In this document: positions 766 through 46,057 of the stretch, piece after piece | Numbering within the stretch: position 1 is the first letter of the stretch | How the letters are laid out: each line of letters begins with the position of its first letter | From: Desulforamulus aquiferis | GTDB lineage: Bacteria > Bacillota > Desulfotomaculia > Desulfotomaculales > Desulfotomaculaceae | DNA length: 47,933 nt | Direction: 5' to 3' | NCBI GenBank assembly: GCA_004143605.1 | Contig: AWVY01000021.1 | Coordinates: forward strand, 76,040-123,972 | The notes under the pieces: generated by a model | Seen by the model: the letters and a program-made list of their open reading frames with translations, nothing else | Told to the model about the DNA's origin: nothing | Databases searched by the model: none | Made by a program: the position numbers and the translations under genes

Positions 766-3136
766 TTAGCATAGGGCAGCTTCGATCATTGAAAGTAATT
801 GTTCCTTTTGGAAACCATGCTGTTGGCTGGCACCATTTGGACAAACGGCTACACACATTCCACAACCGGTACACAATACTTCCCTTACACTAGCTACCCT
901 CTTAAACCTATCCAAATCCCTTGCGCCACTGGGGCAGTGCTTTTCACATAAACCACAGCCCCCGCACAATTCTTCGTCAACCGTGGCAACAATACCAAGG
1001 GATTCAACCTTCTTCCTGTCCAGGAAGTTTGCTGCCTGTATTGATGCAGCATAGCCTTGGCTTATACTTTCTTCTGTTGTTTGAGGTCCTTGGGCTGTTC
1101 CGCATAGATACAAACCATCAACTTTAAAATTTACAACATTAAATTTCTGATCAGCTGGGGCAAAGAAACCATTTTTGTCCAGAGGTATTTTAAAACATTT
1201 ACTTAGTATTTTATTGTCCTTTGCTGGCTCTACTCCAGTGGATAATACCAAGAGGTCAGCTTGCAAATTCAACATTAATTCAGGGTAAGGATTTTTTATC
1301 TGAACATTTATGTTTCCCTGGACATTAGTGACCTGGGGTTTTTTATCAAGTCCCAGCCTTATAAACCTTATTTCTTTCTGCTGTGTTCTAGTATAGTAGT
1401 TTGGGTATGAACTGCAATTAATACTATCCCGGTATAATATATATAAATTAATATCTGGATCTATTTCTTTGATTGCCAGGCATTTCTTAATGCCTCGGTA
1501 CAACAATTTTTACTACAATAGGGCCTTACCTCTTTTAAACCAACACACTGCACCATCACAACAGTTTTGACCCCGGAAAGGAATTCCTGAGAAATTCGTT
1601 GCTCCAACTCTTGCTGTGTAATTACAGCTGGGTGCTGACTATACAAATATTCTTTGGGCTTAACGCTGGATGCCCCTGTTGCAATGATTACCGTGCCGTG
1701 CTCTACATAAGTGGTACCACCATTGCTCTGTGCTATAGTAGTTTTATACCTACCTGGAAAGCCCGCGACATCTTTTATTTTACTTTTAAGAAACACTTGA
1801 ATGTTAGGAGCAGCCAAGACCTTTTCCTTTAGCTCCCCAATAAAACTATCAAGCTCATTATTTTTTTCCACTAAAACTGTTTGATAGCCCTGGTCTGCCA
1901 GTGATAGGGCACTAATCATGCCAGCCACGCCACCACCGATAATGAGACTGGCCTGAATTATATCGGCATGGGTGGTGGAAACTGGTCTAAGCAAGGGGGC
2001 CTTTGCAACAGCCATCTTAACTAAATCCTTCGTTTTCTCGGTGGCTTTCTCCGGCTTATTGCTGTGTACCCAGGAAACCTGCTCCCGAATATTAACATGT
2101 TCATAAAGATATGGGTTAAGTCCTATCTCCCTTAAACCGTCTTTTATTAATGCTTCTAAGACATTAGGTGTGCAGGAGGCAATTACCACCCTATTTAGCG
2201 TATATTTAATAATCATTTCCTTCATTTTAGCAATACTCTCGGGAGAACATAAATGAAGGTATTCACTTACATAGTCAACATTTTTTAGGTTCTTGGCATA
2301 GGATAAAATTTCAGGCATATTGACAACCCTGGCAATGTTATTGCCTCCATTACAAATGAACACACCCACCTTAGGCTTCTCCATATTAACATTACGTTCC
2401 ACCGGATATACTTTATCAATTTTTTTGTTTCGTATCGGTGCTAAAAGCTTAGCAGCTTGGGCGGCAGTGGAACTTGCATCGATGACAGTTTCAGCAACAT
2501 CCTTGGGACCAGAGAAATTACCGCAGGTAAAGATACCCGGGCGTGCTGTATGACCTGGCATGATTAACTTGTTAAGTCCATTTCGGTTACCCTTTAGCCT
2601 TATATCCAAAATTTGTCCTAGTTTGTTGGCATTTCTGCCTGTAAGTATTACTGCATCCATTTCTAACTGAAGCACACGTTCTATTATATTCTCTGGGTGG
2701 TTTTTTTCTTTACAATCCCAGCATAGTTCATTGGAACTAAGGTTATTGTCAGGCTCGGAAACTTTAGCACATGCCCCACAGCCTAATATCCGATTGTAGT
2801 CTACGTTATTAGTTCTTTGCAGGATTTTTGCTCTGAAACTACCAGGCTCTCCTTCAAGATCGATGACTTCTGCTTCAGTAAAAATGTTAATATTCCTATG
2901 ATTAAGTACACTAATTAACAATGGGGATAAAGTACACATGGCACATGGCTTGGCAGAAATGGCACAATTATTCTCCGGCAGGTGTTTATCCCTCTTCGTC
3001 ATAATTGACCCTAGATTATGCCTCTTTTCTGCTAGATACACGAGATAGCCCAATTTAGCTAAGTCAAGGGAAGCTTGCATACCTGAGATACCACCCCCAC
3101 AACCAGCACCGTACCAATGGGTTTATTAACTGTCAT
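766..3136 (-). CDS. degenerate HdrA-like iron-sulfur flavoprotein
   Basis: About 790 residues once two breaks are repaired: one G short in VVGGGISGM near 3103, and one C short near 1487. The start is the ATG at 3136, 26 bases after the stop of the upstream fusion gene, behind a GAGGGG site. HdrA is the flavin subunit of heterodisulfide reductase. Here the FAD fold (GGGISGM, GGGVAGM), the CSKNCC segment and two C-terminal 4Fe-4S motifs (CGGCGLCEKHCP, CTGCGMCVAVCP) are intact. Other HdrA signatures are changed: the usual VCNCGINIG is ICNGGNNIA, the first ferredoxin motif reads LGCGACAKVSEP and lacks Cys, and NDCAMC is expanded to NNCAISAKPCAMC. The N-terminal half is much shorter than in its 38.8-kb paralogue. 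It is probably a diverged partner of the adjacent fusion rather than a complete HdrA. Confidence 0.8.
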
Positions 3137-3162: not shown

Positions 3163-6100
3163 TTAAAATAGTGCAGCATCAATCATGGCCAGCATTTGTT
3201 CCTTTTCAAAGCCCTTTTGCTGAGTAGCTCCATTTGGGCAAGCAACTGCACAGGCACCACAGCCCTGACAAAGAACTTCCCGCACCAAGGCCACACGTTT
3301 CTTCTCATCGATAACCCTAGCACCATAGGCACAGGCAGCTACACATATGCCACAGCCCTTGCATAATTCTGTATCAACCTGTACCGTAATACCCAGTGAC
3401 TCTAACTTACCCTTTGACAGGAGACTGACGGCCCTAATTGAGGCAGCATTGGCCTGGGCAATTGTACTTCTGATATTTTTAGGACCGTGGGCTAATCCGC
3501 ATAGGTAAAGACCGTCAGCAGCAAAGTCCACAGGTCTCAACTTCATATGAGCCTCAAGGTAAAATCCATCATTATTAATTGGCACTTTAAACATCTGACT
3601 AAGCTCTAAATTATCCTTGCGAGCTTCCATCCCATTAGCCAGGACCAACAAGTCTGCATCAATTTTGATATTCCGCTGCAGAACATGATCCATAGCAGTT
3701 ACAGTTATTTTTTCACCCTCTGACTCCACCTTCGGTTTATTGTCTAGTCCGTAGCGGATAAAGATTACCCCCTTGCGGCGGGCCTCAACATAATATTCCT
3801 CCTTAAAACCGAAGGTACGAATATCACGATATAAAATTACTACCCTGGCATCTTGGTTAAGTTCCTTAATCTTTAAAGCATTTTTTATAGATTGAGTACA
3901 GCAGACCCTACTGCAATAAGGTCTTTCCTGTTCCGGGAGCCTACACAGTTAATCATCACAATGGTATTCGCGTCACCAAGTCCCTGGTAGTACATTCTTT
4001 GCTCCAACTGCACCTGGGTGATAACGGAAGGATTTTCTCCATAAAGATATTCAGTTGGGACAACCGGATTGGCTCCCGTGGCAATGATCACGCCACCATG
4101 TTCGATTTCTGAAGTGCTTTCGTCATTTCTAATGATTTTGGTTTTATAGTTGCCAAGGTAGCCAGCCACATTTTGAACCTGGGATTTCAGCATTACCTCA
4201 ATTAATTCATTGGCTTTAACATCAGCTTTAAGACCGTTTAAAAATCTGGGTAAATCACCGCCATCATAGCTGTAACACAGCTCATTAGCCATACCTCCAA
4301 GGTCCCGGGATTTTTCTACCAATACCGAATGAAACCCCTGCTCTGCCAGGGATAAAGCTGCAGTCATGCCTGCGATTCCTCCACCAACCACAAGAACTTT
4401 AGGATTTACATCAATAAAGGTTGGCTGAACCGGCTTAAGCAGGCGAACCTTAGCCACTGCCATTCTTACTAAATCCTTGGCCTTTTCGGTGGCTTCCTTT
4501 GGAAACTCCCGATGCACCCAGGATGACTGTTCCCGAATATTGGCATGTTCATAGAGGTAGGGATTTAACCCTGCTTCTTTCATACTGCTCTGGAAAAGTG
4601 GTGCATGTGTTCTGGGTGTACAGGAAGCAACCACAACCCGATTTAATTTATGCTCCGAAATACGCTCTTTTATTTTTATAATGTTATCCTGGGAACAGGT
4701 AAATAAAAATTCTTCAGTATGAACAACCCCAGCCAGTTCCGCGGCAAAATCAGCTACCTCTGTTACATTAACCACGCTGCCAATATTAATGCCACAGTTG
4801 CAGACAAAAACTCCTACCCGTGGAAGCTCCCTGCTGACATCCCTTTCCGGTGGGTACTCTTGGACTGCGGTCATGGTCCACGTGCCGGTGCCAATAAGCG
4901 GGAGGCCATGGCAGCTGCCGCACTGGCATCAACCACTGTTTCGGGAATATCCTTTGGTTCTCCAAAGGCCCCGCTGGTAAAAACACCCTGTCTAGAGCTT
5001 TGTCCCGGACTAAAATCTAAGCTCCGGCAAAATCCATAACGGTCAAGCTCAATGCCTACTGCCCGAGCTAATTCTGCTGAGCCTTCGGGGGCGGACAGGC
5101 CAATGGACAGAACCACCATATCAAAGGTTTCGTAATGAATATTGCCCGATTCATCGGCATAACGAATGGCCAGGTCATCACTACCCTTGCTTGTAGGATC
5201 TATACCATATATCCTTGAACGAACGAACTTGATGCCATGTTCATCCTTAGCCCTATTTTGGTACCTTTCAAAGTCTTTGCCGTGGGTGCGCAGATCCATG
5301 TAGAATATTGTTGTATCCAAAGGGTGGTGACTATGTTCCTTAGCTATCATGGCTTGTTTTATTGCATACATACAGCATACCGATGAACAAAAGCCCTGGC
5401 CAATTTTTTCATTTCTTGACCCAACACATTGAATCCAGCAATCTTAGCCGGCTCTTTATGGTCAGAGGCCTGATCATATGACCTGAGAAAGGTCCACTGG
5501 CCGATAAAATCCGTTCAAACTGGATGCTAGTAACAACATTTGGATACCTACCATAACCGTACAAATATAAATCACTGGATCATAGGGTTTAAAACCAGGG
5601 TTAAGTACCAATGCCCCTACTTCATACTCCAGTTCCTGATCTCTCATCTCGTGGTTAATAGCCTTTGGTATGCAGACATCCACGCATTGAAGGCATTCTG
5701 AACATACTGCACAGTTTAGACAGCGCTCAGCCTCAGCACAGGCCTGCTCTTCTGAATAACCCAAGGCCACCTCGTTGAAACCACTGGATCTTATTTCAGG
5801 AGAGATGTATGACTGCTTAATGGCTGGTTCCTTGTTAACTTCACATTTCTTTTGACGTAGGGGGGATATTTCTTCCGGGGATATTAAGAAGGTACGACCT
5901 GCCCTAAGGTCTTCCCCTTGAATATATCGGTGTATACTTTCTGCAGCCCTTTTCCCAGCTCCTACAGCATCAATTAATAGCCTCGGGCCAGTTTGGACAT
6001 CCCCTCCTGCAAAAATCCCCGGTACACTGGTAGCTAAAGTATCCCTGTCTGCAACTAGACGATTACCCTGTTCATTGATAATAGGTTTATCACCAGCAAA

Positions 6101-7600
6101 GGATAAATCTGGCCTTTGGCCAATGGCAATGATCACACCGTCGAAACCATTCCAGTCAGTTAGCTCATCCCCACACATGGGCGAAAAGCATCCTTCATCA
6201 TCAAAAAGCCGTATTACATTGGCAGTAATAAGTCCGCTGACTTTACCATTAACCCCCCTGATTTCCTTTACACTGCCACTGTAGTGGAATTTTACGCCTT
6301 CTTCAATGGCCTCCTGTATTTCCTCAGGATCGGCAGGTAATTGTCCCTGGGCTTCCAGAGTAAGTACATGTACCTCGCACCCAGACGTCTTGATACCCTA
6401 GCAGCATCCATGGCCACATTACCACCGCCGACGACCATAACCTTACTCCCAACCTTTACATCTTCACCTAGTCCAACGCCTCGCAGCATTTCTACGGCTG
6501 TTAAGACTCCCTTTAAATCGTTGCCCGGTACATTAAGCTGCAAGCCCTCTTGTGCTCCAACTCCTAAAAATATTGCTTTATAGCCATCTGCAAATAGCTT
6601 GTCAATAGTAATATCTTTGCCTAATGCCGTATTAAGCCTGATTTCTACCCCCAGTTTTTTGATTAGTTCAATCTCCAAATCCACCCACTTTTTGGGTAAG
6701 CGATACTCTGGAATCCCAACCCGCATCATCCCACCCGTAACGGCAGAGCCTCAAAAACCGTTACTTGATAACCCTGCAGGCTTAAGAAATATGCTGCGGA
6801 TAAGCCTGCAGGCCCAGAACCGATCACAGCAACCTTTTCCTCTCTCTGAAAATCCCTTTCAGGCAGGGGTAAATTGTCTAAATCCCTATAGGCAACGTCT
6901 GCTGCAAATCTCTTTAAATTTTTAATTTGTACTGATTCATCTATGGATGCCCTGTTACAAGCCCCTTGACAAGGGTGAGCACAAATTCGGCCAAGGACCG
7001 CAGGAAATGGCATATCTTGATAAATCATTTTCCATGCATCAACATACTTGCCTGACTTAACCAACTGAATATAGCCCTGAACGTTGACCCCGGAAGGGCA
7101 GGTTGCTTTACATGGAGCCAATCCCCTTTTTTCAATGGCAAAGGCATTAGGTGTTGCCTGGGCATAAAGCTTATAGGTTGCCTTACGGCTATCTAAATTA
7201 CCATTAAAGTTGTTTGGCAATTCAACGGGACAAACCCTGGCACAGTCACCACAACCTGTACATTTTGCTAGATCTATATAACGGGCCCTTTGTTTGACTT
7301 TGACCCGAAAATTTCCTGGTTCACCAGATACATCTGTTATTTTAGCTCCAGTGACAATTTGGATATTCTTATGCCGACCTGTATCCACCAATTTTGGGGA
7401 CATGATACACATGGCACAATCATTAGTTGGAAAAGTTTTGTCCAGGCGAGCCATTGTTCCGCCAATGGCTGGCTTTTCTTCTAAAAGATATACTTTAAAG
7501 CCAGATTCAGCTAAATCTAGGGCTGATTGCATCCCAGAAATACCACCTCCGACTACCATGACTGCTCCAACCAGCTTATTAGCTCCTGTTCCTTATTCAT
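3163..7600 (-). CDS. hdrA: HdrA-GltD-like-HdrA fusion flavoprotein, copy A
   Basis: One gene of about 1,480 residues, read here in six pieces because of single-base losses (for example AA near 7580, G near 6735, C or G runs near 6375, 5540, 5420 and 3880). The start is ATG 7600 behind GGAGGG. Order of domains: HdrA N-terminal Rossmann fold (VVGGGISGM) with the NDCAMC flavin motif; a 4Fe-4S motif CTGCGDCARVCP; an inserted GltD/NfnB-like module with its Cys-rich head (APCKATCPSG, CAHPCQGACNR), FAD motif VIGSGPAGL and nucleotide motif VVGGGNVAMDAAR; a second ferredoxin stretch (CLNCAVCSECLQCVDVC); then a further complete HdrA unit (VCNCGINIG, SCTPRTHAPLF, two C-terminal 4Fe-4S motifs). It is colinear with the gene at 38.9-43.3 kb. 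The nucleotide loop reads TLEAQGQLP instead of the YRRTRGEMP of that copy. Likely an electron-bifurcating subunit accepting NAD(P)H; partners HdrB, HdrC and MvhD are absent from this locus. Confidence 0.85.
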
Positions 7601-34242: not shown

Positions 34243-35358
34243 TTAGTGCTTACCAGTATTAAGTTCTTCCAACTCATGTTCCTTATATACTGTGATGGGT
34301 ATTGCTTCATCCAGGGATCGGCCTGGCTCGTACTCAAAGCGGTCCTGGTTGGGCTGGGCCAGGGCTTGGAATATGAGTCCCACAGGAATATCCATGGGGC
34401 AGGCGTTTTCGCATTGGCCACAGCCAACGCAGGACAGACCCATGTGGTTTACCCTGGTCAGGTGGAATAGTGTGGTGTCGGTGGGCAGCTCGATGGCACC
34501 CTTCCTTCTGGCATATTCCATGTATTTATCGCCGTTGTGGTCAAAGATAGGCCCGGCGGATACACATTCACGGCAGAAGCAGATTGGGCAAGCCTGACGG
34601 CAGTTTTGGCACTTAATACAGGTGGCCAGTACTTCAGCAAGTTTGTCCATACTGTCAAAGGATTTTTTGAATTCGGCAATGGCAGCAGTTTTAGCCGTTC
34701 CCTTTTCTGCTGCAATTTTATCGATAATTTTTGTTCTGGTATCCGGCACGCTTGCAGAATCTAGACCGGCAACACCAGACAGATCTAGCTCATCCTTGGC
34801 TGATACCAGCAGATTACCGCCCATGCCCAGCCAGCCTAAAATAATATCGGCTTTGCTGGCCTCGGGGTAGGCACAGATGCCGCAGGCCCGACGCATGGTC
34901 ATGCCTGTGGGGTTGCTGCCGTCAGCAGCTTTAGCAGCCCATGCCTTGGCGTCAATTTTATTTTCTTTTACCATTTGGGCATAATCCTTGGCAGCAAAGG
35001 TACCGTTGCAATCAACCCCGATAACTACCAGGTTATCCATTTTAGCCTGTTGTAGCTTAGTTAGTTCAAATAATGCCCGAACCTCACAGGAGCGGAGCAC
35101 CACAGCCACCTTTTCAGGTAGATTTCTAGAAAGATTGGCCACCAATCTGGCCACATTTAGTCCATTTACCGGGGCAAAGGGATCAACAGCACCAAGCATT
35201 TCCGGGTCCCTGATCAGGGTGGGAACCACATTGGTTTTTGCTGCTACTTCCTGGGGGGCCAGAACGGCACCCACCACACCGGAAGTCATAAGGGATTTTA
35301 AAAATCCCTGGACGGCACTCAAGGTATCGCCACTTGCTTTTATAGTATAAGTTTTCAT
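34243..35358 (-). CDS. FrhB/FdhB-family iron-sulfur flavoprotein subunit
   Basis: An intact 371-residue protein. The N-terminal part (VAVVLRSCEVRALFELTKLQ, NLVVIGVDCNGTF) and ACGICAYPEASKADIILGWLG match the FrhB/FdhB family, the F420- or NAD(P)H-reactive flavoprotein subunit of hydrogenases, formate dehydrogenases and related complexes. It carries CIKCQNCRQACPICFCREC (about residues 245-263) and a C-terminal 4Fe-4S motif CVGCGQCENACPMDIP. No formate dehydrogenase or hydrogenase catalytic subunit is encoded nearby, so it probably passes electrons between an outside donor and MvhD/HdrA. It is the last gene of locus B, 18 bases after mvhD, with its own GGAGGCG site. Function within the complex is inferred. 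Confidence 0.82.
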   Translation of the reverse strand: MKTYTIKASGDTLSAVQGFLKSLMTSGVVGAVLAPQEVAAKTNVVPTLIRDPEMLGAVDPFAPVNGLNVARLVANLSRNLPEKVAVVLRSCEVRALFELTKLQQAKMDNLVVIGVDCNGTFAAKDYAQMVKENKIDAKAWAAKAADGSNPTGMTMRRACGICAYPEASKADIILGWLGMGGNLLVSAKDELDLSGVAGLDSASVPDTRTKIIDKIAAEKGTAKTAAIAEFKKSFDSMDKLAEVLATCIKCQNCRQACPICFCRECVSAGPIFDHNGDKYMEYARRKGAIELPTDTTLFHLTRVNHMGLSCVGCGQCENACPMDIPVGLIFQALAQPNQDRFEYEPGRSLDEAIPITVYKEHELEELNTGKH

Positions 35359-35376: not shown

Positions 35377-35823
35377 TTAGATTTCCCAGTTCTTACGCAG
35401 CGGGTTAGGTCCTAAATTTTTCAGTTTGTTCGTCATTTCGGTAATTACTTCACCAAAATATGCACCCTGGGAAGCACTGATAAATCTTAACCATAACCGC
35501 TCCTCTGGTATTCCTAACTGTTGGAGCACGTTTCTGGCGATGGCCACTTTTCTGCGGGCCTTGTAATTGCCACTACCATAGTGGCAGTCACCTTCGTGTC
35601 AGCCACCAACTAGTACTGCATCTCCACCGTCTAGAATTGGTTTAATCATATACAGGGGATCTACCGCTCCACTACACATAACCCTGATAATTCGAACGTT
35701 TGGGGGGTATTGGATGCGGGCTGTACCTGCTAAATCCGCACCGGTATAGGTACACCAGTTACACACGATAGCAATAATCTTAGGTTCGAACTCAGTTTGA
35801 ATTTTTTGCTCGGGAACGCTCAT
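35377..35823 (-). CDS. mvhD: MvhD electron-transfer subunit
   Basis: About 148 residues after repair of one break near 35600 ([21 protein letters not shown]). MvhD pattern: [69 protein letters not shown], with five conserved Cys that hold a [2Fe-2S] cluster in methanogen MvhD. The protein passes electrons to HdrA. Downstream of hdrA with 21 bases between, upstream of the FrhB-like gene. Confidence 0.93.
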
Positions 35824-35844: not shown

Positions 35845-38800
35845 CTAGTTGTTACATGCATCCAACATGGCCAAGATTTGCTGTTTTTCAAAACCCTTTT
35901 GCTGGGAAGCACCGCTGGGGCAGGCAGCCACACAGGCACCACAGCCCTGGCAAAGTACATCCAGCACATCAGCTACGTTAGTCAATTCATTCATAACCCT
36001 GGCACCGTAGGAGCAGGCCTCTACGCAAAGTCCACAGCCCTTACACCACTTGGGATTTACCATGCCACGTTGCCAAGGGATTCCAGCTTATCCTTAGACA
36101 GCATGGTAACAGCCCTAACAGCTGCCGCATTAGCCTGGGCAATGGATTCCTCAATTAACTTGGGTGAGTGGGCCAAGCCACATAGATATAAGCCATCGGC
36201 GGCAAAGTCCACCGGACGAAGTTTCATATGTGCTTCCAGGAAATAACCGTCGGCGTTTAGGGAAACTTTGAAGGTCTGGCTTAAAGCATCTGTACCTTGT
36301 GCCGGAATAATACCGGTACTTAAGACCAATAGGTCTGTATCTAACTCGAGGGTCTTATTCAATATTGGATCCTTTACAGTTACCTTCAGCTTATCTCCCT
36401 TAGCTTCCACCACAGGCTGATCTTCCAGGGTATACCTAACGAAGACAACTCCCTGTTTTCTGGCTTCAGCATAGTAGGTTTCGTAAAAACCATAGGTTCT
36501 GATGTCCCGGTATAGGATAAATACGTTGGCCCCAGGATTTTGCTCTTTTATCTTAAGGGCATTTTTAACAGCATTGTAACAACAAATCCGGCTGCAGTAG
36601 GGTCTTTCCTCATTTCTAGAACCTACACACTGAATCATGACAATGTTATTGGCGTTTCCAACGCCTGGTCCAGCCAGTTTTTGTTCTAGCTCCCGCTGGG
36701 TTAGAACTGCTCCATGCCGGCCATATAGGAATTCTTTAGTTTCAGCAGGCTCGGCACCTGTGGCCACAATAACTACACCGTGCTCAATTTTCTTATCACC
36801 TGATGGAACTGCCAGTGTTGTCTTGTAGTTACCCAGGTATCCAGCAACATCCTTGATGGTTGATTCAAGATATAGTTCTATATTTGGGTTGCTGTTTACA
36901 TCAGCAATGAGTTTGTCAACCAGTTCTGATGGGTTATTACCTTTCATGGTATACTTGACATCCAAAGCCTGGCCACCCAATTTTCCTGTGCGTTCTACCA
37001 GATAAACCTTAAAACCCTGACCTGCCAAGTTAAGGGCATTAGTCATACCAGCTATGCCGCCACCTATTACAAGGGCCTGACGGTTTATATCCATAAAGGA
37101 GGTGTAAACCGGCTTCAGCAGCTTAACCTTGGCCACAGCCATTTTTACAAGATCCTTGGCCTTTTCGGTGGCTGCATCGGGGTTATCCCTGTGTACCCAG
37201 GAGGAATGCTCCCTAATGTTGGCCTGTTCAAAGAGGTATTGGTTAATGCCCGCCTCTTTAAGGCTACTCATAAATAATGGAGCGTGGGTTCTTGGTGTAC
37301 AAGATGCCACCACAACCCTGTTCAGCTTATGCTCGTTTATGGAAGCTTTAATCTTTTCGATACTATCCTGGGAGCAGCTAAAGAGAAACTCCTCGGTATA
37401 AACTACTCCCGGAATTGTCTTGGCATACTCGGCCACCTCAGGCACCCTGACAACACTGCCAATGTTGATACCGCAGTTGCAGACAAATACACCTACTCGG
37501 GGATCTTCCTGACTTATATCCCTTTCCTCTGGATATTCCTTAATTTTGCTCATGCTACCACGAACTGCACTAAGGAAATTGGAGGCATTGGCTGCCGCAG
37601 CACTGGCGTCCACTACTGTTTCTGGAATATCCTTAGGGGCACAGAAGGCACCTCCGGCAAATACACCGTCACGGGTGGTCTGACCCGGCGCAAACTCTAC
37701 AGTCTTACAGAAGCCGTAGCTATCCAGCTCGATATTGCAGGCCTTTGCTAGGTTAGCATTGCCGGCTGAGGCTTTAGTCCCACCGACAGAATGAGCATAT
37801 CAAATTCTTCTTCAGAAAAACTTCCGTCGGGATTGCGATATTTAACTAGAAGGTTTTTAGTATTGGGATCTTCCTTCACTGAGGAAATCATAGCCTTTTG
37901 ATATTTAACACCGTGCTGAATTTTGGCCCGCTCATAGTACTTTTCAAAATCCTTACCATAGGCCCTGACATCCATGTAGAAGACCTTGGTCTCCAAACCC
38001 GGCTCATGTTCCTGGGCGATAATGGCATGTTTTGTAGCATACATGCAGCAGACCGCGGAGCAATAGTGGTTACCCTTAGCAGCATCCCTTGAACCAACAC
38101 ACTGGACAAAGGCGATCTTCTTAGGTTCCACATGATCTGAAGGGCGGGCCAGGTGTCCCATGGTTGGGCCACTGGCAGAAAGTAACCGCTCAAACTGGAG
38201 GCTGGTCAAAACATTTGGTAGATACCCCAACCAAACTCGCCCCTTAAATCTCCGTCCATGGGATCAAAGCCTGGGCTTAGTACCACAGCTCCAACCTCAA
38301 GTTCTAGGGTGGTATCTGGCATGGAATGATCGATGGCCTCTGCCGGGCAAGCCTTTAGACACTTACCGCAGGCCTTGGGGTTTTTAAGTTTCAAACACTT
38401 AGCCTTATCAACAGCATAAGCATTCGGTGTGGCCTGGGCATAAAGCTTGTAGATAGCTTTACGTTTGCCCAAACCACCATCAAAATCATCATCAACCTTT
38501 ACAGGGCACTCTTCTGCACAAGCACCGCAGCCGATGCACTTTTCCAGGCTTACACAGCGTGCCTGCTGCAAAACTTTAGCCTTAAAATTGCCTGGTTCCC
38601 CTTCCAGGCCAATAAGCTCGGCCCCGGTAATGATTTCTATATTTAGGTGACGACCCACGTCAACCAGCTTGGGGGACATTGTGCACATGGCACAGTCGTT
38701 GGTGGGAAAGGTTTTATCCAGCCGGGCCATGGTACCCCCGATGGCGGGCTTTTTCTCCACCAGATAAACCCGGTAGCCGGACTCGGCCAGATCCAGGGCG

Positions 38801-38865
38801 GACTGCATCCCGGAGATGCCGCCGCCCACAACCAGTACCGCGCCGATTTGCTTTTTATCCGTCAT
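35845..38865 (-). CDS. hdrA: long HdrA, second HdrA of locus B
   Basis: About 1,010 residues after repair of breaks near 38218, 37752, 37630 and 36060. An N-terminal partial HdrA (VVGGGISGM, TFPTNDCAMC, CIGCGACAEECP, CGKCLKACPAEA) is followed by a complete HdrA unit: VGVFVCNCGINIGS, SCTPRTHAPLF, VIGGGIAGM, CSRICCYNAVK, YLCGLAH, and two C-terminal 4Fe-4S motifs (CKGCGLCVEAC, CQGCGACVAACP). It resembles the long HdrA seen with MvhD and methylene-THF reductase in Moorella. There is no GltD-like insertion, unlike its operon neighbour. All Cys that its diverged locus A counterpart lacks are kept. Predicted bifurcating flavin subunit. ATG 38865 lies behind AGGAGG, 15 bases after the fusion gene. 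Confidence 0.9.
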
Positions 38866-38880
38866 AGGTCCTTCAACCTC

Positions 38881-41800
38881 CTATCCCAGAGCCGCATCCA
38901 TCATGGCTAGTAATTGTTCTTTTTCGAAGCCCTTTTGCTGTGTGGCACCACTCGGGCAGGCCGCAACACAGGCTCCACAACCCTGACATAATACTTCCCT
39001 TACCAGAGCTTTTCCGCTGCGTTCGTCGTACACCCTGGCACCGTAAGCACATGCACTAACGCATATACCGCAACCTTTGCAAAGATCTTCATCTAATTCA
39101 GCTGTAATACCCAGCGACTCTAACCTTCCCTTAGAAAGAAGGGTAACGGCACGTATAGAAGCGGCGTTGGCCTGGGCAATAGTTTCAGAAAGGTTCTTTG
39201 GACCATGGGCTAGACCACAGAGATATAAACCATCGGCAGCAAAGTCAACCGGTCTAAGCTTCATATGGGCCTCCAAGAAGAATCCGTCAGCATTTAATGG
39301 TACTTTAAATAATTGGCTCAATTTCTCAGTATCTGGACGTGGCTGAATACCGTTAGCCAGGGCCAGGATATCTGCATCTATTTTAATAGGTTGTTTTAAT
39401 ACATGATCTGTTACCGTTACAGTAACCTTGCTGCCGTTGCCTACTACTATAGGCTTTTCGTCAGCACTATATCTGATAAAGATTACCCCCTTGCGACGGG
39501 CCTCAGTGTAATATTCCTCTTTGAAGCCATAGGTTCTAATGTCACGATAGAGGATAACTACATTGGCATCAGGATCAAGTTCTTTAATCTTTAGGGCATT
39601 CTTGATGGCATGGGTACAACATACCCTGCTGCAATAGGGTTTTTCTGGTTCCCTTGAGCCTACGCAGTTTATCATTACCACTGTCTTAGCGCCACCCAAG
39701 CCCTTATCGGCAAGCTGTTGCTCTAAAGCACTTTGGGTAATAACTGCCCCATTGCTGCCATAAAGGTACTCTGTGGGTTCCATGGGATCTGCACCGGTGG
39801 CAATAATTACTGCTCCATGCTCAACTTCCAGCTTGCTGCCATCATCCTTAGCCAGAATGGTACGATAGTTGCCCAAATATCCTGCTACATCCTCCACCTG
39901 GGCATTTAATACAACATCCACCAGAGGATTATTCTCCACATCTGATTTGAGCTTGGCTATAAAGGCTGGAATGTCTTCTCCCTTCAAGCTGTAACGCATT
40001 TCCGTTGCCCTGCCGCCAAGGCCATCGGTCTTTTCTACAAGGGTTACTGCATAGCCCTGCTCTGCTAAGGAAAGGGCGTTGGTCATCCCTGCGGCCCCAC
40101 CACCAACAACCAGAGTTCTTTGATTCACATCAATAAAGGCAGTTTGCACCGGCTTTAATAGACGCACTTTGGCTACGGCCATCTTAACAAGTTCCTTGGC
40201 CTTTTCGGTGGCTTCTACCGGGTTATCCCTGTGAACCCAGGAAGACTGTTCACGAATATTGGCATGTTCATAAAGATACATATTGAGTCCGGCTTCCTTC
40301 ATACTGCTCTGGAAGAGCGGAGCATGGTCCGGGGGGTACAAGAAGCCACAACAACCCGGTTTAGATCGTGCTCAGCGATACGATCTTTAATTCTGATAAT
40401 GTTATCTTGGGAGCAACTGAATAGGAATTCCTCCGTATGAACTACACCCGGTAGTTTTAGCAAATTCAGCAACTTCTGGAACTTTTACAACACTCCCTAT
40501 GTTAATGCCGCAGTTACAAACAAATACCCCAACCCTAGGAAGTTTATTATTTACATCTTTCTCCGGCGGAAACTCCTGAACGGTAGTCATAGTACCACGG
40601 GCCGGAGCCAATAATCGAGAAACCATGGCTGCTGCAGCACTGGCATCAACTGCTGTTTCAGGAATATCCTTCGGCTCACCGAAGGCACCACTTACGAAGA
40701 TACCGGGTCTAGAACTGCAGCCAGGAGCATATTCATCGGCACGGCAAAAACCGTATTTATCTAGTTGAATATTTGCTGCCTCACCCAGTTCCTTGGCTCC
40801 CTCGGGGGCAGAAAGACCAATGGACAGGACCACCATATCAAAGGTTTCCTCATAAATAGTTCCGTCTTCGTCGGCATAGCGCATGAAAATATCGTCACTG
40901 CCGTCCTTAGCAGGATCTACTCCAAAGATACGAGAACGAACAAACTTAATTCCCTGTTCATCCTTGGCCCGGGTCAGATAACGTTCAAAATCCTTACCTG
41001 GAGTACGCATATCCATATAGAATAGTTTTGCCTCCAAGGGATCATGACTGTGCTCCTTGGCAATTACTGCCTGCTTGATGGCATACATGCAGCATACCGA
41101 AGAGCAGTAACCCTTGCCAATTCTTTCGTTCCGCGAACCAACACACTGGATCCAGGCAATCTTGGTAGGCTCTTTATGATCGGAAGGTCGAACCATGTGT
41201 CCGGCGTAAGGGCCGCTGGCGGATAGAATCCGTTCAAACTGGATGCTGGTCACTACATTGGGCAGTGTACCGTAGCCATATAATTTTAAGTCTTCTGGAT
41301 CGTAGGGTTTGAAGCCAGGGTTCATTACCATGGCACCAACTTCTATTTCCAGTTCCTTATCCTGCATACTGTGGTCAATGGCTTTAGGCAAGCAGGCGTC
41401 AACACATTGCATGCATTCAGAACAAATAGCACAGTTTAGACAACGTTCTGCTTCTGCCTGGGCTTGCTCGGGAGTAAACCCTAAGCATACTTCCTCTGTA
41501 TTGGTTGCCCTTCTCTCAGCCGGTGCGTGACTTTGTTTAACCTTTGGTGTTACAGGGTAAGACTCGGCCTTACGAGGGATAGGGGATATCTTTTCCTTGG
41601 GAATAGCAAATTCACGGCCAGCCTTCATATCTTCGCCTTGTATGTAGCGGTGTATGCTTTCAGCGGCCCTCTTGCCCGCTCCCACTGCATCAATTAATAG
41701 AGCCGGCCCGGTAAATACGTCACCACCGGTGAAAATACCTGGCACGTTGGTGGCTAAGGTTTCGGGGTCTGCCACAATGCGACTGCCCCACTCATTGGCC

Positions 41801-43328
41801 AGGGGCTTATCCCCCACAAAGGATAAGTCGGCGGCCTGACCGATAGCGGAAATTATTGTATCTACATTGGTCCACTCTGTGATGGCATCTCCATATACAG
41901 GAACGGCTTTGCCCTTGGCATCCTTTTCCATTCTGACAACTTCTATTGAGGAGATACCTGTTATCCGGCCCTTTTTACCCTTGATTTCCTTTATCAGTGT
42001 CTTAAAGTGGAACCTTACTCCCTCTTCAATGGCCTCTTCTACTTCTTCCGGTGCTGCGGGCATCTCACCACGGGTACGACGGTACAAAACATGTACCTCA
42101 GCCCCGGCACGACGGGCACTTCTGGCAGCATCCATGGCCACGTTACCGCCACCGACTACCAGCACCTTCTTGCCCACATCTACCTTTTCACCAAGTCCAA
42201 TCCTACGCAGCATGTCAACGGCAGAAATTACACCTTCCATATCTTCGCCAGGTGTTCTCATACTGGTACCCTTCTGGCAGCCAACACCTAGGAAAATTGC
42301 TTTATAGCCATCTTTAAACAGTCCATCAATGGTAATATCCTTGCCTAGGGCAGTATTTACCTTAATTTCAACGCCTAATCTCTGAATAAGGTCAATTTCA
42401 AAATCAACCCACTTCTTAGGTAGGCGGTACTCAGGAATACCTACCCGCATCATACCACCCGTTACAGGTAAGGCTTCAAAGATCGTAACTTTATAGCCTT
42501 TGAGGGCTAGGAAGTGGGCAGCGGACAGACCGGCAGGACCGGAGCCTATAACTGCAACCTTTTCTTGCCTGTCAGCTTCTTTCTCGGGCAGGGGTAGTTG
42601 GTTAATATCCTGTTGATAAGCCGTATCAGCAGCTAATCTCTTCAGGGTTGCTATTTGAATAGGTTCGTCAACCTTAGCACGGTTACAAGCAGTTTGACAG
42701 GGGTGTGCACAAATGCGACCACAGATGGCCGGAAATGGCATTTCCTGGTAAATCATTTTCCAGGCATCAATGAATTTCCCCGATTTAATCAATTGAACAT
42801 AACCCTGTACGTTAATTCCTGCCGGGCAGGTAGCTTTACAGGGGGCAACTCCACGCTTGTCTATGGCAAAGGCGTTGGGGGTAGCTGGGCATAGAGCTTA
42901 TATGTTGCTTTGCGGGTATCTATTTCGCCGTTAAATTCGTTGGGCAGTTCCACCGGACAGGCACTGGCACAGTCACCACAGCCGGTACATTTTTTAATAT
43001 CAACGTAACGGGCCTTTTGAGCTACTTTTACCTTGAAGTTTCCCGGATCGCCAGTTACTTCCTTCACCTTGGCGCCGGTAATAATTTCAATATTCTTATG
43101 GCGTCCGGTGTCAACCAGCTTAGGGGACATAATACACATTGCACAGTCGTTAGTTGGAAAGGTTTTATCCAACCGTGCCATGGTGCCCCCAATTGCAGGC
43201 TTTTCATCCAATAGATAAACCTTAAAACCAGACTCAGCCAAGTCCAAGGCGGATTGCATACCAGATATACCGCCACCCACCACCATGACTGCTCCGGTCA
43301 TTTTTTTATCGGTTTGGACGTTGCTCAT
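38881..43328 (-). CDS. hdrA: HdrA-GltD-like-HdrA fusion flavoprotein, copy B
   Basis: About 1,482 residues after repair of breaks near 42890, 40450 and 40327. Order: Rossmann FAD motif VVGGGISGM (16-24), NDCAMC (60-65), CTGCGDCASACP (114-125); then a GltD/NfnB-like module (about residues 165-600) with CKATCPAG, CAHPCQTACNR, VIGSGPAGL and VVGGGNVAMDAARSARRAGA followed by VHVLYRRTRGEMP; then CLNCAICSECMQCVDACLPKA, CSSVCCMYAIK; then another full HdrA (VCNCGINIGS, VVGGGAAGM, CSRVCCTHAIK, YLCGLAHGPKN) with two terminal 4Fe-4S motifs. The YRRTR loop suggests NADPH binding, as in GltD and NfnB. The complex thus carries its own NAD(P)H site inside HdrA. Start ATG 43328 behind GGAGG, directly after hdrB. 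Confidence 0.88.
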
Positions 43329-43356: not shown

Positions 43357-44204
43357 TTACCCGGCCAGCACGGAATCAAGCAATTTGCTGGAATCCACCA
43401 GGTGCTTGCTGCACCAGTTGCGTACCTCCGGAATCCCAAAGGCTAAGCCCATTAATTCTGTAAAGAAGAATACTGGCATATCTTCACCTTGGGGACGACG
43501 CATTTCTAAGTTTGTCTGGCAAAGGGGGCAAGAGTTAACTACCGCGTCAGCACCTGCCTCACGGGCCTTGGCCAGGATCTTTCCAGATAAGTTGGTAACC
43601 ATCGCCGACTTAGACACCGAGTGACCTGCCCCGCAGCAATCAACCTTATATGACCAGGTTATCGGGGTAGCACCAATGCCTTTATTAATTTATCCATTTG
43701 CATAGGATTCTCGGTGCTATCAATGCCTGTTATCTCTCCCGGACGCACTGACAGGCAACCGTAGTAGCAGGCGATCTTCAAACCCTTTAGGGGCTTTTGT
43801 ACTTTCTTGCTAATATTTGGCAAACCAATTACATCAACCATGGCAGCTAATAGGTCATATACCCTGGGTTTACCATCAAACTTGAAATTTAATAGCTTCT
43901 CTATATCCTGCCTGACTTCAGCATTATGTATCATCTCGTATTCCGCGCTTTTTAGGCGGTTAAAACAGGCGGAACAGGGTACTACACAATCCATATCCAT
44001 TTGCTGGATCTGTTTAACAGTTAAGGCCGGTAATCCCACAGAAAGTCGATGATTGGTTGCGTGGGCTGAGGTAGCACCGCAGCAAGTCCAGTCAGGTATT
44101 TCCACCAGGTCCACATCCAGTGCACCGCAAACAGCTCTAACTGAGCTATCATATTCCTTGGCGGTAGCCTCCAGGGAGCAACCCGGATAGTAGGCCAATT
44201 TCAT
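43357..44204 (-). CDS. hdrB: HdrB, two CCG-domain subunit
   Basis: About 283 residues after restoring one G near 43671, which joins KALGATPITWSYKVDCCGAGHSV. Two CCG cysteine-rich domains: YPGCSLEATAKEY with WTCCGATSAH and CSACFNRL, then CYYGCLSVRP with DCCGAGHS and CPLCQTN. In HdrB these Cys hold the two noncubane [4Fe-4S] clusters that reduce the heterodisulfide; in bacteria the natural acceptor is unknown. Both sites are complete. It lies between hdrC and the fusion hdrA, with a GAGAGGGG ribosome binding site. Confidence 0.93.
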
Positions 44205-44257: not shown

Positions 44258-44814
44258 CTATTTCTTGGCCCAGTCAAAGATACGCTTTACTTCTACTTTA
44301 CTGGGAACACTGTGGGGGAACAGGGCTAGCTTCCCTTTAAGGAACATTTTAATACCAACACCCACGTCATCCATCAAATGGCCACTCTTCAGCTTATAGC
44401 GCATAAGCATAGTGCCTTCATGAACTCTTCCGTAGGATTTTGCAGAATTTAAGAAGCAGTCGTGGAAAAGTTTAATATCTTTTTCGCCCGGAGCAACTCC
44501 TTCTTCAATGGCCATTTCTCTTAGGGCATCCATTACTGAAGCAATACGTATTCCATTGGGACAGCGGGCACCACAGGTTTCACAGCCCACACATACCCAA
44601 ATGGCTTTACTTTTTAATAGCTCATCCTTCAAGCCAAACTGGATCATCCGAAGAACTTGGTTTGTATCCATTTCTCCGTATTCAGCAATTGGACATCCGG
44701 AGGCACACTTTTGGCACTGATAGCAGCTTTCAATTTCCTGTCCGCTGCGTTTCTTTATTTCTTTTGTGAAATTTAGTCTAGCGCCTTCGGACCGCCATCG
44801 GTTATAATATACAC
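44258..44814 (-). CDS. hdrC: HdrC iron-sulfur subunit
   Basis: About 186 residues if one G is restored near 44784, giving MYIITDGGPKGARLNFTKE from a GTG at 44814 behind AAAGGGGGTGG. Two 4Fe-4S motifs: CYQCQKCASGCP and CVGCETCGARCPNG, with the HdrC signature DTNQVLRMIQFGLKDELLKSKAIWVCVGC. HdrC conveys electrons from HdrA to HdrB. First gene of locus B; 53 bases precede hdrB. The C-terminal SKVEVKRIFDWAKK is normal for the family. Confidence 0.9.
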
Positions 44815-45264
44815 AGGTCCACCCCCTTTAAATATTACGATTTTACTTTAGTTTAGTTTATCATATGCTATATTTTGAACAAACCTTCGCGAGTATGGAC
44901 TAGACCCAAATGCAAATTTTGGGTTCTAGTTCATTTTTTACTTCCCTTCGCTGACAATCTATTTGTTTCTCGCTTTTACTTTATTTGGCTTAATTAAAAA
45001 TTTTCCATAAACCTCGCAGCCCTTGATTTATAAGGTTTTTTGTTTTTTGCAGACTATCTAAATATTAAAACTTTTTTCGCTTTTGCTTTAATACCCCCTT
45101 GTATTTCGCTAAAACTAATTTCGCTGGCGAATCCTTTTATGTCAGCATTCAGACAAAAGTATTTCTAAGCAAAAGAGAACCAGACACACCACCTTACTAA
45201 ATCAGCTCAGCAGAGTTTAGTCACCAGTTAAAATAAATAATGTATTCAAAATTTTTAAATAACC
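44815..45264. other. intergenic region upstream of Hdr locus B
   Basis: About 450 bases, AT-rich, with the leader and presumed promoter of locus B at the low end (no clean -35/-10 pair recognised) and the hairpin at 44898-44939. From 44950 to 45200 are several TTCGC-containing stretches in T-rich DNA with no supported gene. Confidence 0.5.
44898..44939 (+). terminator. plus-oriented hairpin with T run
   Basis: GACTAGACCCAAA pairs with TTTTGGGTTCTAGTTC (one bulge), followed on the plus strand by ATTTTTTA. It has the form of a rho-independent terminator on the plus strand, but no plus-strand gene ends here. Confidence 0.55.
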
Positions 45265-45779: not shown

Positions 45780-46057
45780 TTATATTTTAATGTCGAAGAT
45801 GGAGAAAAGTAGGTCGGTCCCAGCCCTCCAGGGAAAAGGAGCCTTGACTGGAAGCTCTTTTAGGGTATGGATGAGCGAAGTTCGCTCCGGAGATGCTGCG
45901 TTGAAATTCTTAGTAGGTGCAGCCGGGAACTCCCCCCGTTACAAGGAAAGGTATCGGACAGTCGAGTCCCGTACCGGTAAAGCGGCTTTAAGCAATTAGG
46001 GTGGTACCGCGAAATCATGCATTTCGTCCCTCAGGGATGAGATGCTTTTTTATTTTA
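45780..46057 (+). ncRNA. T-box riboswitch leader
   Basis: Stem I begins near GAGAAAAGTAGG; the stem II/III region carries CTTAGTAGGTGCAGCCGGGA and CCCCCCGTTACAAGG; the invariant antiterminator bulge TGGTACCGCG is at 46002-46011; and a terminator GCATTTCGTCCC / GGGATGAGATGC followed by TTTTTTATTTT is at 46019-46055. Uncharged tRNA pairing at the TGGTACC box would prevent termination. I could not identify the specifier codon with confidence. The downstream symporter is therefore probably an amino-acid transporter or linked to amino-acid supply. Confidence 0.9.

Follow-up and report, generated by a model that had tools for sequence, protein, structure and literature searches.

A window of 47,933 nucleotides from Desulforamulus aquiferis contains, at two loci termed A and B, genes for HdrA proteins interrupted by a GltD-like unit. 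In our preferred reading, to which we assign a probability of about 70%, both proteins are HdrL-type subunits in which the inserted entry unit feeds the flavins of HdrA, with opposite coenzymes in the two copies and an NAD(P)-binding cassette that has been exchanged. The architecture, the intact relatives, the cofactor ligands, the binary coenzyme motif and the mosaic history of these proteins are established at the level of sequence.

Fused HdrA genes and the locus B cluster

The genes and modules concerned are the following.

44258..44827, minus strand: hdrC, two 4Fe-4S motifs, N-terminus frame-broken, Pfam matches Fer4_8 and Fer4_17
43357..44204, minus strand: hdrB, two CCG domains with a Pfam match in each piece, one frameshift near 43680
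38881..43328, minus strand: HdrA-GltD fusion of locus B (HdrL type), about 1,481 amino acids once frames are joined
41425..42852, minus strand: inserted GltD/NfnB/StnC-like unit of locus B, residues ~160-635, with two [4Fe-4S] clusters and FAD and NAD(P) domains
38881..40497, minus strand: second HdrA module of the locus B fusion, with N-terminal HdrA part, TrxR-like FAD domain and two C-terminal [4Fe-4S] clusters
35845..38865, minus strand: second long HdrA, frame-broken, 1,007-1,018 amino acids in relatives
35377..35823, minus strand: mvhD, in-frame TGA at 35601, probable selenocysteine
34243..35358, minus strand: FrhB/FdhB-like iron-sulfur protein, PF04432 (E 1.6e-05) and Fer4 domains
3163..7559, minus strand: HdrA-GltD fusion of locus A, frame-broken, with more frameshifts than locus B
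766..3122, minus strand: HdrA-like gene immediately downstream of the fusion of locus A, truncated and with its first Fe-S motifs eroded

An earlier note on this DNA had described an HdrA of roughly 1,480 residues with a GltD/NfnB-like module at 38881-43328, and both coordinates and length proved right, although the frames are broken near 42880, 40450 and 40340, with short C runs at two of these breaks. The first Fe-S motif of HdrA module 1 (CTGCGDC) is found at residue 114 and the module picks up again past the GltD unit at CSECMQC, residue 636. The proposed insertion after the first 4Fe-4S motif is correct in its position and can be refined: the inserted ferredoxin domain of HdrA has two 4Fe-4S motifs, and the GltD unit separates them. 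A Pfam domain search, of the kind the note had suggested, detects Fer4_20 (E 9.5e-23) and Pyr_redox_2 (E 4.8e-43) in the insert. Among solved structures, the insert matches chains of NfnABC (E 6.2e-111) and StnC (E 9.2e-107), in accordance with a complete GltD-type unit, and module 1 without the insert matches HdrA chains (E 7.7e-119), values that exclude chance. The claimed continuation into a second full HdrA is borne out by the match of module 2 to the HdrA chain 8rvu_a (E 1.2e-130). Because the frame in the window is broken, a homologue from Moorella stamsii (L055) was modelled instead of the window protein. Its model superimposes on HdrA (5odc) with a Z-score of 50.0 and 1.8 Å over 426 residues spread across positions 5-904, the HdrA fold being interrupted by a unit that reaches Z-scores of 47.5 against StnC and 45.4-48.7 against NfnABC.

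The many frameshifts of the window and an estimated genome completeness of 72% might suggest that the long frame is an assembly chimera of hdrA and gltD. Unbroken fusion frames of 1,481-1,492 amino acids in all eight same-genus genomes searched, four of them single-contig assemblies, rule this out and leave it with a vanishingly small probability. As these orthologues are open throughout, real stops between the modules, the second objection foreseen in the note, do not apply either. The second copy is located at 7559-3163 on the minus strand, so the fusion is indeed present at two loci; relatives contain an intact orthologue of this copy (L022:883-5331, 1,482 amino acids) and a counterpart of the truncated gene next to it (L022:5375-7729, 784 amino acids).

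At locus B the genes follow the order hdrC-hdrB-hdrA-hdrA-mvhD-frhB, which confirms the six-gene cluster of fusion, HdrB, HdrC, second long HdrA, MvhD and FrhB-like protein proposed before. The reading frame of hdrC (44827-44261) has an intact orthologue at L021:5386-5958, and in the same locus hdrB is intact with 282 amino acids. The in-frame TGA of mvhD is probably a real selenocysteine codon, as judged from its occurrence at the same position in six annotated same-genus clusters, a hairpin following it in all three sequences folded, and a selB match above cut-off in the organism's own genome. The PF04432 match of the FrhB/FdhB-like protein scores 25.3 bits against a cut-off of 23.3, and a dsrA match above cut-off is also found in the genome. 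The window cluster and the six annotated same-genus clusters contain no metVF, with frhB following mvhD instead, and a complex of the MetVF type (type IV methylene-THF reductase) was thus dismissed for locus B. With respect to a separate FlxA NADH dehydrogenase subunit, as in FlxABCD-HdrABC, the six-gene run shows no additional gene in those relatives whose gene order was read.

Cofactor ligands and the bifurcation signature

We aligned fusions in 60 rows, which represent 59 distinct genes since L020 and L134 both denote a single one. Rows are missing for L048, L056, L057, L059, L061, L071, L075-L077 and L137, due to a broken or cut frame or a miss by the motif filter, and L132, L149 and L150 were left out of row extraction. 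Apart from C203 (48/60), every cysteine ligand that we checked, whether in the insert or in the inserted ferredoxin domain, is conserved in 59-60 of the 60 rows. Relative to the reference pair E356/K409 of M. thermolithotrophicus HdrA, the bifurcation-related glutamate of module 1 is kept in 58 rows (two gapped) and the lysine in 59 (one gapped), whereas the pair in module 2 is less constant (E 46/60, K 43/60, 9-10 gapped). Locus B contains both pairs (E699/K752 in module 1, E1202/K1242 in module 2), while in locus A we find the lysine in module 1 and both residues in module 2, the glutamate of module 1 being lost in a frame gap. A polypeptide combining an electron-entry site with HdrA flavin modules that may bifurcate, as put forward in the earlier note, is supported by the complete NAD(P)H/FAD/2x[4Fe-4S] unit and the retained Glu/Lys pairs, and locus B, with its full cluster and this signature, stands as a candidate for flavin-based electron bifurcation. 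The Glu/Lys signature alone is no proof of bifurcation.

Alternatively, the FAD of the GltD unit itself could be the bifurcating flavin, as in NfnB, with the HdrA modules acting as mere relays. The unit is homologous to NfnB and an arginine equivalent to NfnB R201 is found in 47 of 60 fusions, including both window copies. The ligand of the proximal cluster, however, is a lysine (K170) in the non-bifurcating StnC and a glutamate in NfnB (PMC10482914), and the equivalent position (Lys230) is a lysine in 56 of 60 fusions, with both window copies lacking the glutamate and carrying lysine. Together with the nearly universal retention of the Glu/Lys pair in the first HdrA module, this residue disfavours NfnB-like bifurcation at the inserted FAD, which we regard as distinctly improbable.

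Coenzyme motif and history of the NAD(P)-binding domain

The proposed difference in coenzyme is manifested in three features of the NAD(P)-binding domain.

42076..42081, minus strand: Arg417-Arg418 at the beta-2 tip of locus B, NADPH-type signature
6353..6358, minus strand: Leu-Glu at the beta-2 tip of locus A, NADH-type signature
41770..42309, minus strand: NAD(P)-binding cassette of locus B, residues ~341-520, marked by dips in identity and conflicting trees

The tip of strand beta-2 is strictly binary in all 60 fusions, with Arg-Arg in 40 and Leu-Glu in 20. Like window copy A, the copies L022, L027_1 and L131_2, each the second fusion of its genome (G008, G006 and G002, respectively), carry Leu-Glu. 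In the L055 model, strand beta-2 comprises residues 412-416 and the pair equivalent to Arg417-Arg418 is located at 418-419. All five solved NfnB, StnC, NfnA and Xfn chains compared exhibit YRR, and NADP(H) is the coenzyme of NfnB and StnC (PMC10482914). Conversely, HdrA of M. thermoacetica carries Leu-Glu, and a glutamate at this position is described in the literature as excluding NADP. We thus infer that copy B is NADPH-like, as NfnB and StnC, and copy A NADH-like, as the Moorella HdrA, the link of Leu-Glu to NADH being drawn from this single characterised protein, in the accounts of which no exclusion of NADPH was found. The GXGXXG/GXGXXA rule, applied in the literature to archaeal type III HdrA, fails as discriminator, as the two window copies have the same GGGN-x-A as M. 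thermoacetica HdrA, for which NADH oxidation is reported. Among openly accessible article texts, our literature search found no published account of the Arg-Arg/Leu-Glu split. The difference between copies A and B had been missed in the earlier note.

It is conceivable that both copies use NADH and that the motif has no effect on the coenzyme. Certain Rossmann enzymes take either coenzyme, and NADH appears in the published proposals for D. reducens, the D. autotrophicum HdrL and Moorella. Considering the Arg-Arg of the solved NADP(H) enzymes, the reported exclusion of NADP by glutamate and the strictly binary motif, we find a shared use of NADH unlikely and favour opposite coenzymes.

Within the window's order, all seven genomes with two copies of the ~1,480 amino acid class, to which this count was restricted, contain one of each type (G000, G002, G006, G008, G043, G045 and G021), although the seven are not independent, as the first four belong to one genus, and the copies of G021 are either frame-broken or fragments at the end of a contig. 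In the wider phylum none of four two-copy genomes combines opposite types, G314 and G331 being Leu-Glu/Leu-Glu and G333 and G106 (with frames of just 877 and 1,121 amino acids) Arg-Arg/Arg-Arg. A general rule of one long fusion per coenzyme type thus failed and is claimed within the order only.

The difference between types extends over the entire domain. In comparison groups picked after the motif was seen, region 341-520 is 19-30 points less identical than the rest of the protein in all 10 chosen Leu-Glu/Arg-Arg pairs, but only 0-6 points in all 10 chosen same-type pairs, and between the cluster copies of G001 and G006 identity falls from 82-94% in the remaining protein to 59% within the cassette. 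Tree tests reject the window family as one clade for the NAD(P) domain (p 0.0002) and Arg-Arg proteins as one clade for the rest of the protein (p 3e-51). Arg-Arg cassettes from two families group together, with unstarred support values of 88/80 and 92/85. The L026 pair appears as sister with 100* support in the 60-row tree but only 75 in a 26-row tree. The 60-row tree implies 9-10 type changes, a rough count because of its long branches, which are mostly outside the window's order. Collectively, these sequence comparisons suggest that residues ~341-520 have a history separate from the remaining protein, with repeated exchange of a coenzyme cassette.

The dimorphism could instead have arisen by repeated point mutation with local co-adaptation. 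As the domain spans just ~105-180 residues, selection might have acted in parallel at many of its sites. An NAD(P) domain that co-evolved as a whole could converge and so resemble an exchanged one. The comparison groups, moreover, were picked once the motif was known, and the support of the Arg-Arg group is unstarred. Still, the drop across the whole region in all chosen unlike pairs and the conflicting clade rejections in the two parts of the protein argue for cassette exchange, and we consider point mutation an unlikely origin.

Proposed working and comparison with known systems

In the proposed mechanism, the first ferredoxin domain of an HdrA-HdrA polypeptide would have received a GltD/StnC-like electron-entry unit, whose FAD would be reduced by hydride from NAD(P)H. 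A bifurcating role of this FAD is improbable, given that the proximal cluster position is a lysine as in StnC and not a glutamate as in NfnB. Electrons would pass one at a time via the two [4Fe-4S] clusters of the unit and the HdrA ferredoxin domain to the HdrA flavins, which retain the Glu/Lys pair of bifurcation. From there, one branch may lead to HdrBC, with a disulfide or, as the organism has dsrA, a DsrC-type protein as acceptor, and the other to a low-potential carrier, for which the second HdrA, MvhD and the FrhB-like protein are possible exits. Operation in reverse would likewise be possible. Copy B appears to be built for NADPH and copy A for NADH, and the NAD(P)-binding domain would have moved between HdrL-type genes as a cassette. 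For the window proteins, coenzyme choice, direction, acceptors and bifurcation itself are all inferred.

More tentatively, the exchangeable cassette might provide some cells of the order with NADPH- and NADH-charged HdrLs, perhaps on the same HdrBC-MvhD-FrhB core, and hence with a possible indirect transhydrogenase in sulfate reduction, a scenario that we consider rather doubtful. If both HdrLs dock on one core, the bifurcating machine could be fed from either nicotinamide pool. The fused HdrA is a known but little-studied route by which nicotinamide coenzymes can pass electrons directly to a flavin-bifurcating Hdr core, and the choice between NADPH and NADH is decisive for the energy balance of sulfate reducers and acetogens. 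The binary, domain-wide signature offers a testable prediction of this choice for every such fusion, with close natural pairs such as the G001/G006 cluster copies being suited for direct experimental comparison. If true, the coenzyme preference of a bifurcating enzyme was switched repeatedly by whole-domain transfer.

Our data support the idea that HdrA has an electron entry of its own, but this is already in print and not new. The contrast drawn in the earlier note with bacterial systems using separate entry subunits is not supported, since the MetFV complex, one of the examples listed there, contains in M. thermoacetica a fused HdrA of this kind with 1,487 amino acids. The name HdrL dates from a 2009 paper on Desulfobacterium autotrophicum HRM2 (PMC2702500), where the fusion is described, similar to the window protein, as an Hdr/glutamate-synthase fusion with an NADH site adjoining mvhD; the same paper lists four mvhD genes as selenocysteine-containing, comparable to the TGA in the window, and places HdrL1 with dsrABC, unlike in the window. 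In 2016, Dred_1327 of Desulfotomaculum reducens MI-1 was published as fusion in a six-gene cluster, Dred_1325-1330, that shares the window order (hdrC-hdrB-large hdrA-hdrA-mvhD-'formate dehydrogenase'), was raised on sulfate and contains a large HdrA proposed to oxidise NADH (PMC4759654).

One of our genomes, G007, which we take to be that of D. reducens MI-1, has one long fused copy of the Leu-Glu type, in contrast to Arg-Arg at locus B. In the MetVF-HdrABC-MvhD complex of M. thermoacetica, NADH oxidation is reported for HdrA (PMC9430772), and NADH-driven methylene-THF reduction by the complex was reportedly not observed. Results of the 2014 Moorella study are given here after PMC9430772, PMC13040438 and PMC5736913. 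We recovered this HdrA with 1,487 amino acids and E696, K750, E1204 and K1246 as published; domain order and E/K pairs are identical in kind to the window fusion, whereas its cluster, as read, has an apparent metV-metF (identified by eye) after mvhD and neither a second HdrA nor frhB. Type III HdrA of methane-metabolising archaea, described in 2025 for nine sequences with NADH as proposed donor, also contains GltD within the inserted ferredoxin domain, but without GltD it most resembles the single-module HdrA1, unlike the two-module window fusion (PMC12054007). In the Stn transhydrogenase of Sporomusa ovata (8oh5), the GltD unit of StnC feeds a separate bifurcating module and shares with locus B the lysine at the proximal cluster and Arg-Arg, its coenzyme being NADPH, although StnC is fused to a NuoG-like part and the window unit to HdrA (PMC10482914). 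With a GltD unit in the HdrA ferredoxin domain and a Moorella-type second HdrA module, the window proteins, as judged from their sequences, fit the HdrL/type III HdrA group.

The fused HdrA, its gene neighbourhood and its distribution

The window contains two copies of an HdrA fused to a GltD-type unit, one residing in a six-gene cluster (locus B) and the other at a separate site (locus A), with the following features and protein segments:

44827-34243, (-): locus B cluster of hdrC, hdrB, giant HdrA, second long HdrA, mvhD and an frhB-like gene, with breaks in several frames
43328-38881, (-): giant HdrA of locus B; frame breaks near 42880, 40450 and 40340; 1,481 residues once joined
Giant HdrA, to residue 159: module 1
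Giant HdrA, residues 160-635: GltD-type unit
Giant HdrA, from residue 636: module 1 resumed at CSECMQC
Giant HdrA, from about residue 945: second HdrA module
7559-3163, (-): fusion copy of locus A, the second in the window
3122-766, (-): shortened HdrA-like gene, immediately following the fusion copy of locus A

The genome containing the window (3.57 Mb) is 72% complete, and two of the three frame breaks of the giant HdrA coincide with short runs of C. The giant fused protein proposed in the earlier note is real, with an open frame of 1,481-1,492 residues devoid of inner stops in all eight same-genus genomes searched, and the order of the six genes is identical in the six annotated ones (G001, G003, G005, G006, G007 and G008). 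The insert, which the same note had placed after the first 4Fe-4S motif, is likewise present, its exact position being within the inserted ferredoxin domain, whose two 4Fe-4S motifs flank it.

Within a sample of the phylum, 51 of 398 genomes, including that of the window, match the fusion query at E ≤ 1e-130. A frame of 1,366-1,544 amino acids spanning the whole query is found in 45 of them, the remaining six comprising the frame-broken window genome, cut or shorter frames in G313 and G106, a relative of about 900 amino acids in G417 and partial matches in G073 and G326. Across named genomes, at least 20 loci show the fused motif order, those listed including Thermincola, Smithella, Moorella stamsii, Acidobacteria, Dehalococcoidia, one spirochaete, Atribacteria, Bathyarchaeota and one euryarchaeote.

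HdrA-GltD fusions also come in a second class, found in other families of the order, whose shorter frames span about 900-916 amino acids and share 38-41% identity with the query (G031:C25, G017:C29, G024:C28, G019:C8 and others). Eight loci from other families of the order (L031-L033, L036, L038, L039, L041 and L042) place a fused HdrA near mvhD and two genes resembling, by eye, metV and metF. The product of the shortened HdrA-like gene of the window has eroded first Fe-S motifs and lacks part of the first flavin module; the gene recurs in a second species of this genus, G008, in the region orthologous to locus A (L022:5375-7729; 784 amino acids). By eye, the genes in a run at about 13654-10237 (-) resemble those for MinD/Mrp-type ATPases bearing Fe-S motifs and for small NifX-like proteins, and genes of this kind also come after the second fused copy in L022. 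A T-box leader is located at 45787-46034 (+; Rfam RF00230, 106.3 bits).

Domain architecture and proposed electron path

Module 1 without the insert and module 2 both match methanogen HdrA (E 7.7e-119 and 1.2e-130), and the insert matches chains of NfnABC (E 6.2e-111) and StnC (E 9.2e-107). The M. stamsii homologue was modelled (930 residues; pLDDT 84.8, pTM 0.78): 426 residues spread over positions 5-904 superimpose on HdrA (5odc) with a Z-score of 50.0 at 1.8 Å, and its insert resembles StnC (Z 47.5) and NfnABC (Z 45.4-48.7) over 472-473 residues. Of the 60 aligned fusions, 59-60 retain the cluster cysteines checked in the insert and inserted ferredoxin domain, except for C203 (48/60), and 46 retain those checked in the C-terminal ferredoxin, with all others but one gapped. 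Module 1 has preserved its Glu/Lys pair in 58 and 59 of the 60 sequences, the remainder being gapped, whereas the counterpart in module 2 is less constant (Glu 46, Lys 43, with 9-10 rows gapped).

In the proposed mechanism, NAD(P)H would donate a hydride to the FAD of the insert, whose two clusters would pass single electrons to the ferredoxin domain of HdrA and on to its flavins, where one part of the electrons would go to HdrBC and the other to a low-potential carrier. At its proximal-cluster position, the insert has a Lys in both window copies; according to PMC10482914, StnC carries a Lys there and its GltD flavin has lost bifurcation, with Glu found in NfnB. The high-potential acceptor is likely a disulfide-type protein such as DsrC; a dsrA match exceeds the family cut-off in the organism's genome, and the D. 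reducens cluster Dred_1325-1330 is described as raised on sulfate in PMC4759654. For the M. thermoacetica homologue, NADH oxidation is reported (PMC9430772), and NADH-driven methylene-THF reduction was not observed with that complex.

The mvhD gene (35823-35377, (-)) contains an in-frame TGA at 35601 (VLVGG-TGA-HEGDCHYG), which probably constitutes a selenocysteine codon with a bacterial SECIS element. TGA occupies the same site in six annotated same-genus clusters, with an equivalent in several other families. In the three folded sequences (window, L021 and L025), a hairpin whose apical loop is short comes after it; of seven sources, the search pattern missed the other four. A selB match above cut-off in the window's genome covers positions 1-232 of 581 and is frame-broken beyond. 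Selenocysteine MvhD is already known from D. autotrophicum (PMC2702500). In several of the metV/metF-type loci, the TGA of mvhD replaces a different Cys (CCHY-TGA-AY).

Two coenzyme signatures and the history of the putative NAD(P) cassette

In the NAD(P) domain, the two residues at the tip of strand β2 (417-418 in locus B, and 418-419 in the model of the homologue, following strand 412-416) are Arg-Arg in 40 and Leu-Glu in 20 of the 60 aligned fusions, without intermediates, a binary signature that seems to be new. Locus B of the window belongs to the former and locus A to the latter type. Among 29 loci read from the phylum search (L151-L179), some of whose genes overlap with the 60, 14 are Arg-Arg and 15 Leu-Glu. 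Five solved NfnB, StnC, NfnA and Xfn chains are all Arg-Arg, and NfnB and StnC are NADP(H) enzymes according to PMC10482914. An acidic residue at this tip has been described to exclude NADP and its replacement to be a prerequisite for NADP use. The NADH-oxidising HdrA of M. thermoacetica is of the Leu-Glu type and, by analogy with this one characterised protein, Leu-Glu fusions may use NADH. Both types coexist in all seven two-copy genomes within the order and in none of four outside. Loci L046 and L047, from two species, show a fused HdrA with an hdrC-hdrB pair on either side and a gene of 940-957 amino acids nearby, and carry opposite signatures.

In a tree of the 60 sequences lacking the NAD(P) domain, the type changes 10 times, at least nine of which are forced by starred branches. 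In a tree of this domain alone, Arg-Arg copies from two families form one group (88/80, unstarred), and Leu-Glu copies form another (96/92, starred). A single clade is rejected for the window's family by the domain (log-likelihood 44.5 lower, p 0.0002) and for the Arg-Arg copies by the remainder of the protein (545.8 lower, p 3e-51); these p-values are optimistic since the groups were named once the motif had been seen. Compared to the mean of other regions, identity in residues 341-520 is 19-30 points lower in 10 of 10 mixed pairs and 0-6 points lower in 10 of 10 same-type pairs, all of them chosen and not every one independent. Across all pairs 80-90% identical elsewhere, the same segment is 80% identical in same-type (39 pairs) and 58% in mixed combinations (16 pairs). 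Convergence of the entire NAD(P) domain could account for this pattern instead of cassette exchange. The cluster HdrA of the same-genus genome G001 looks, from its sequence, like a locus B backbone carrying a locus A-type cassette.

Relation to described proteins

The name HdrL was given to the fusion in D. autotrophicum in 2009 (PMC2702500), the architecture of Moorella HdrA was described in 2022 (PMC9430772) and an archaeal type III HdrA in 2025 (PMC12054007). The M. thermoacetica HdrA recovered here (1,487 amino acids) has E696, K750, E1204 and K1246 at the published positions. The large HdrA of D. reducens Dred_1325-1330 was proposed as NADH-oxidising part in 2016 (PMC4759654), and the gene order described there is identical to that of the window cluster.
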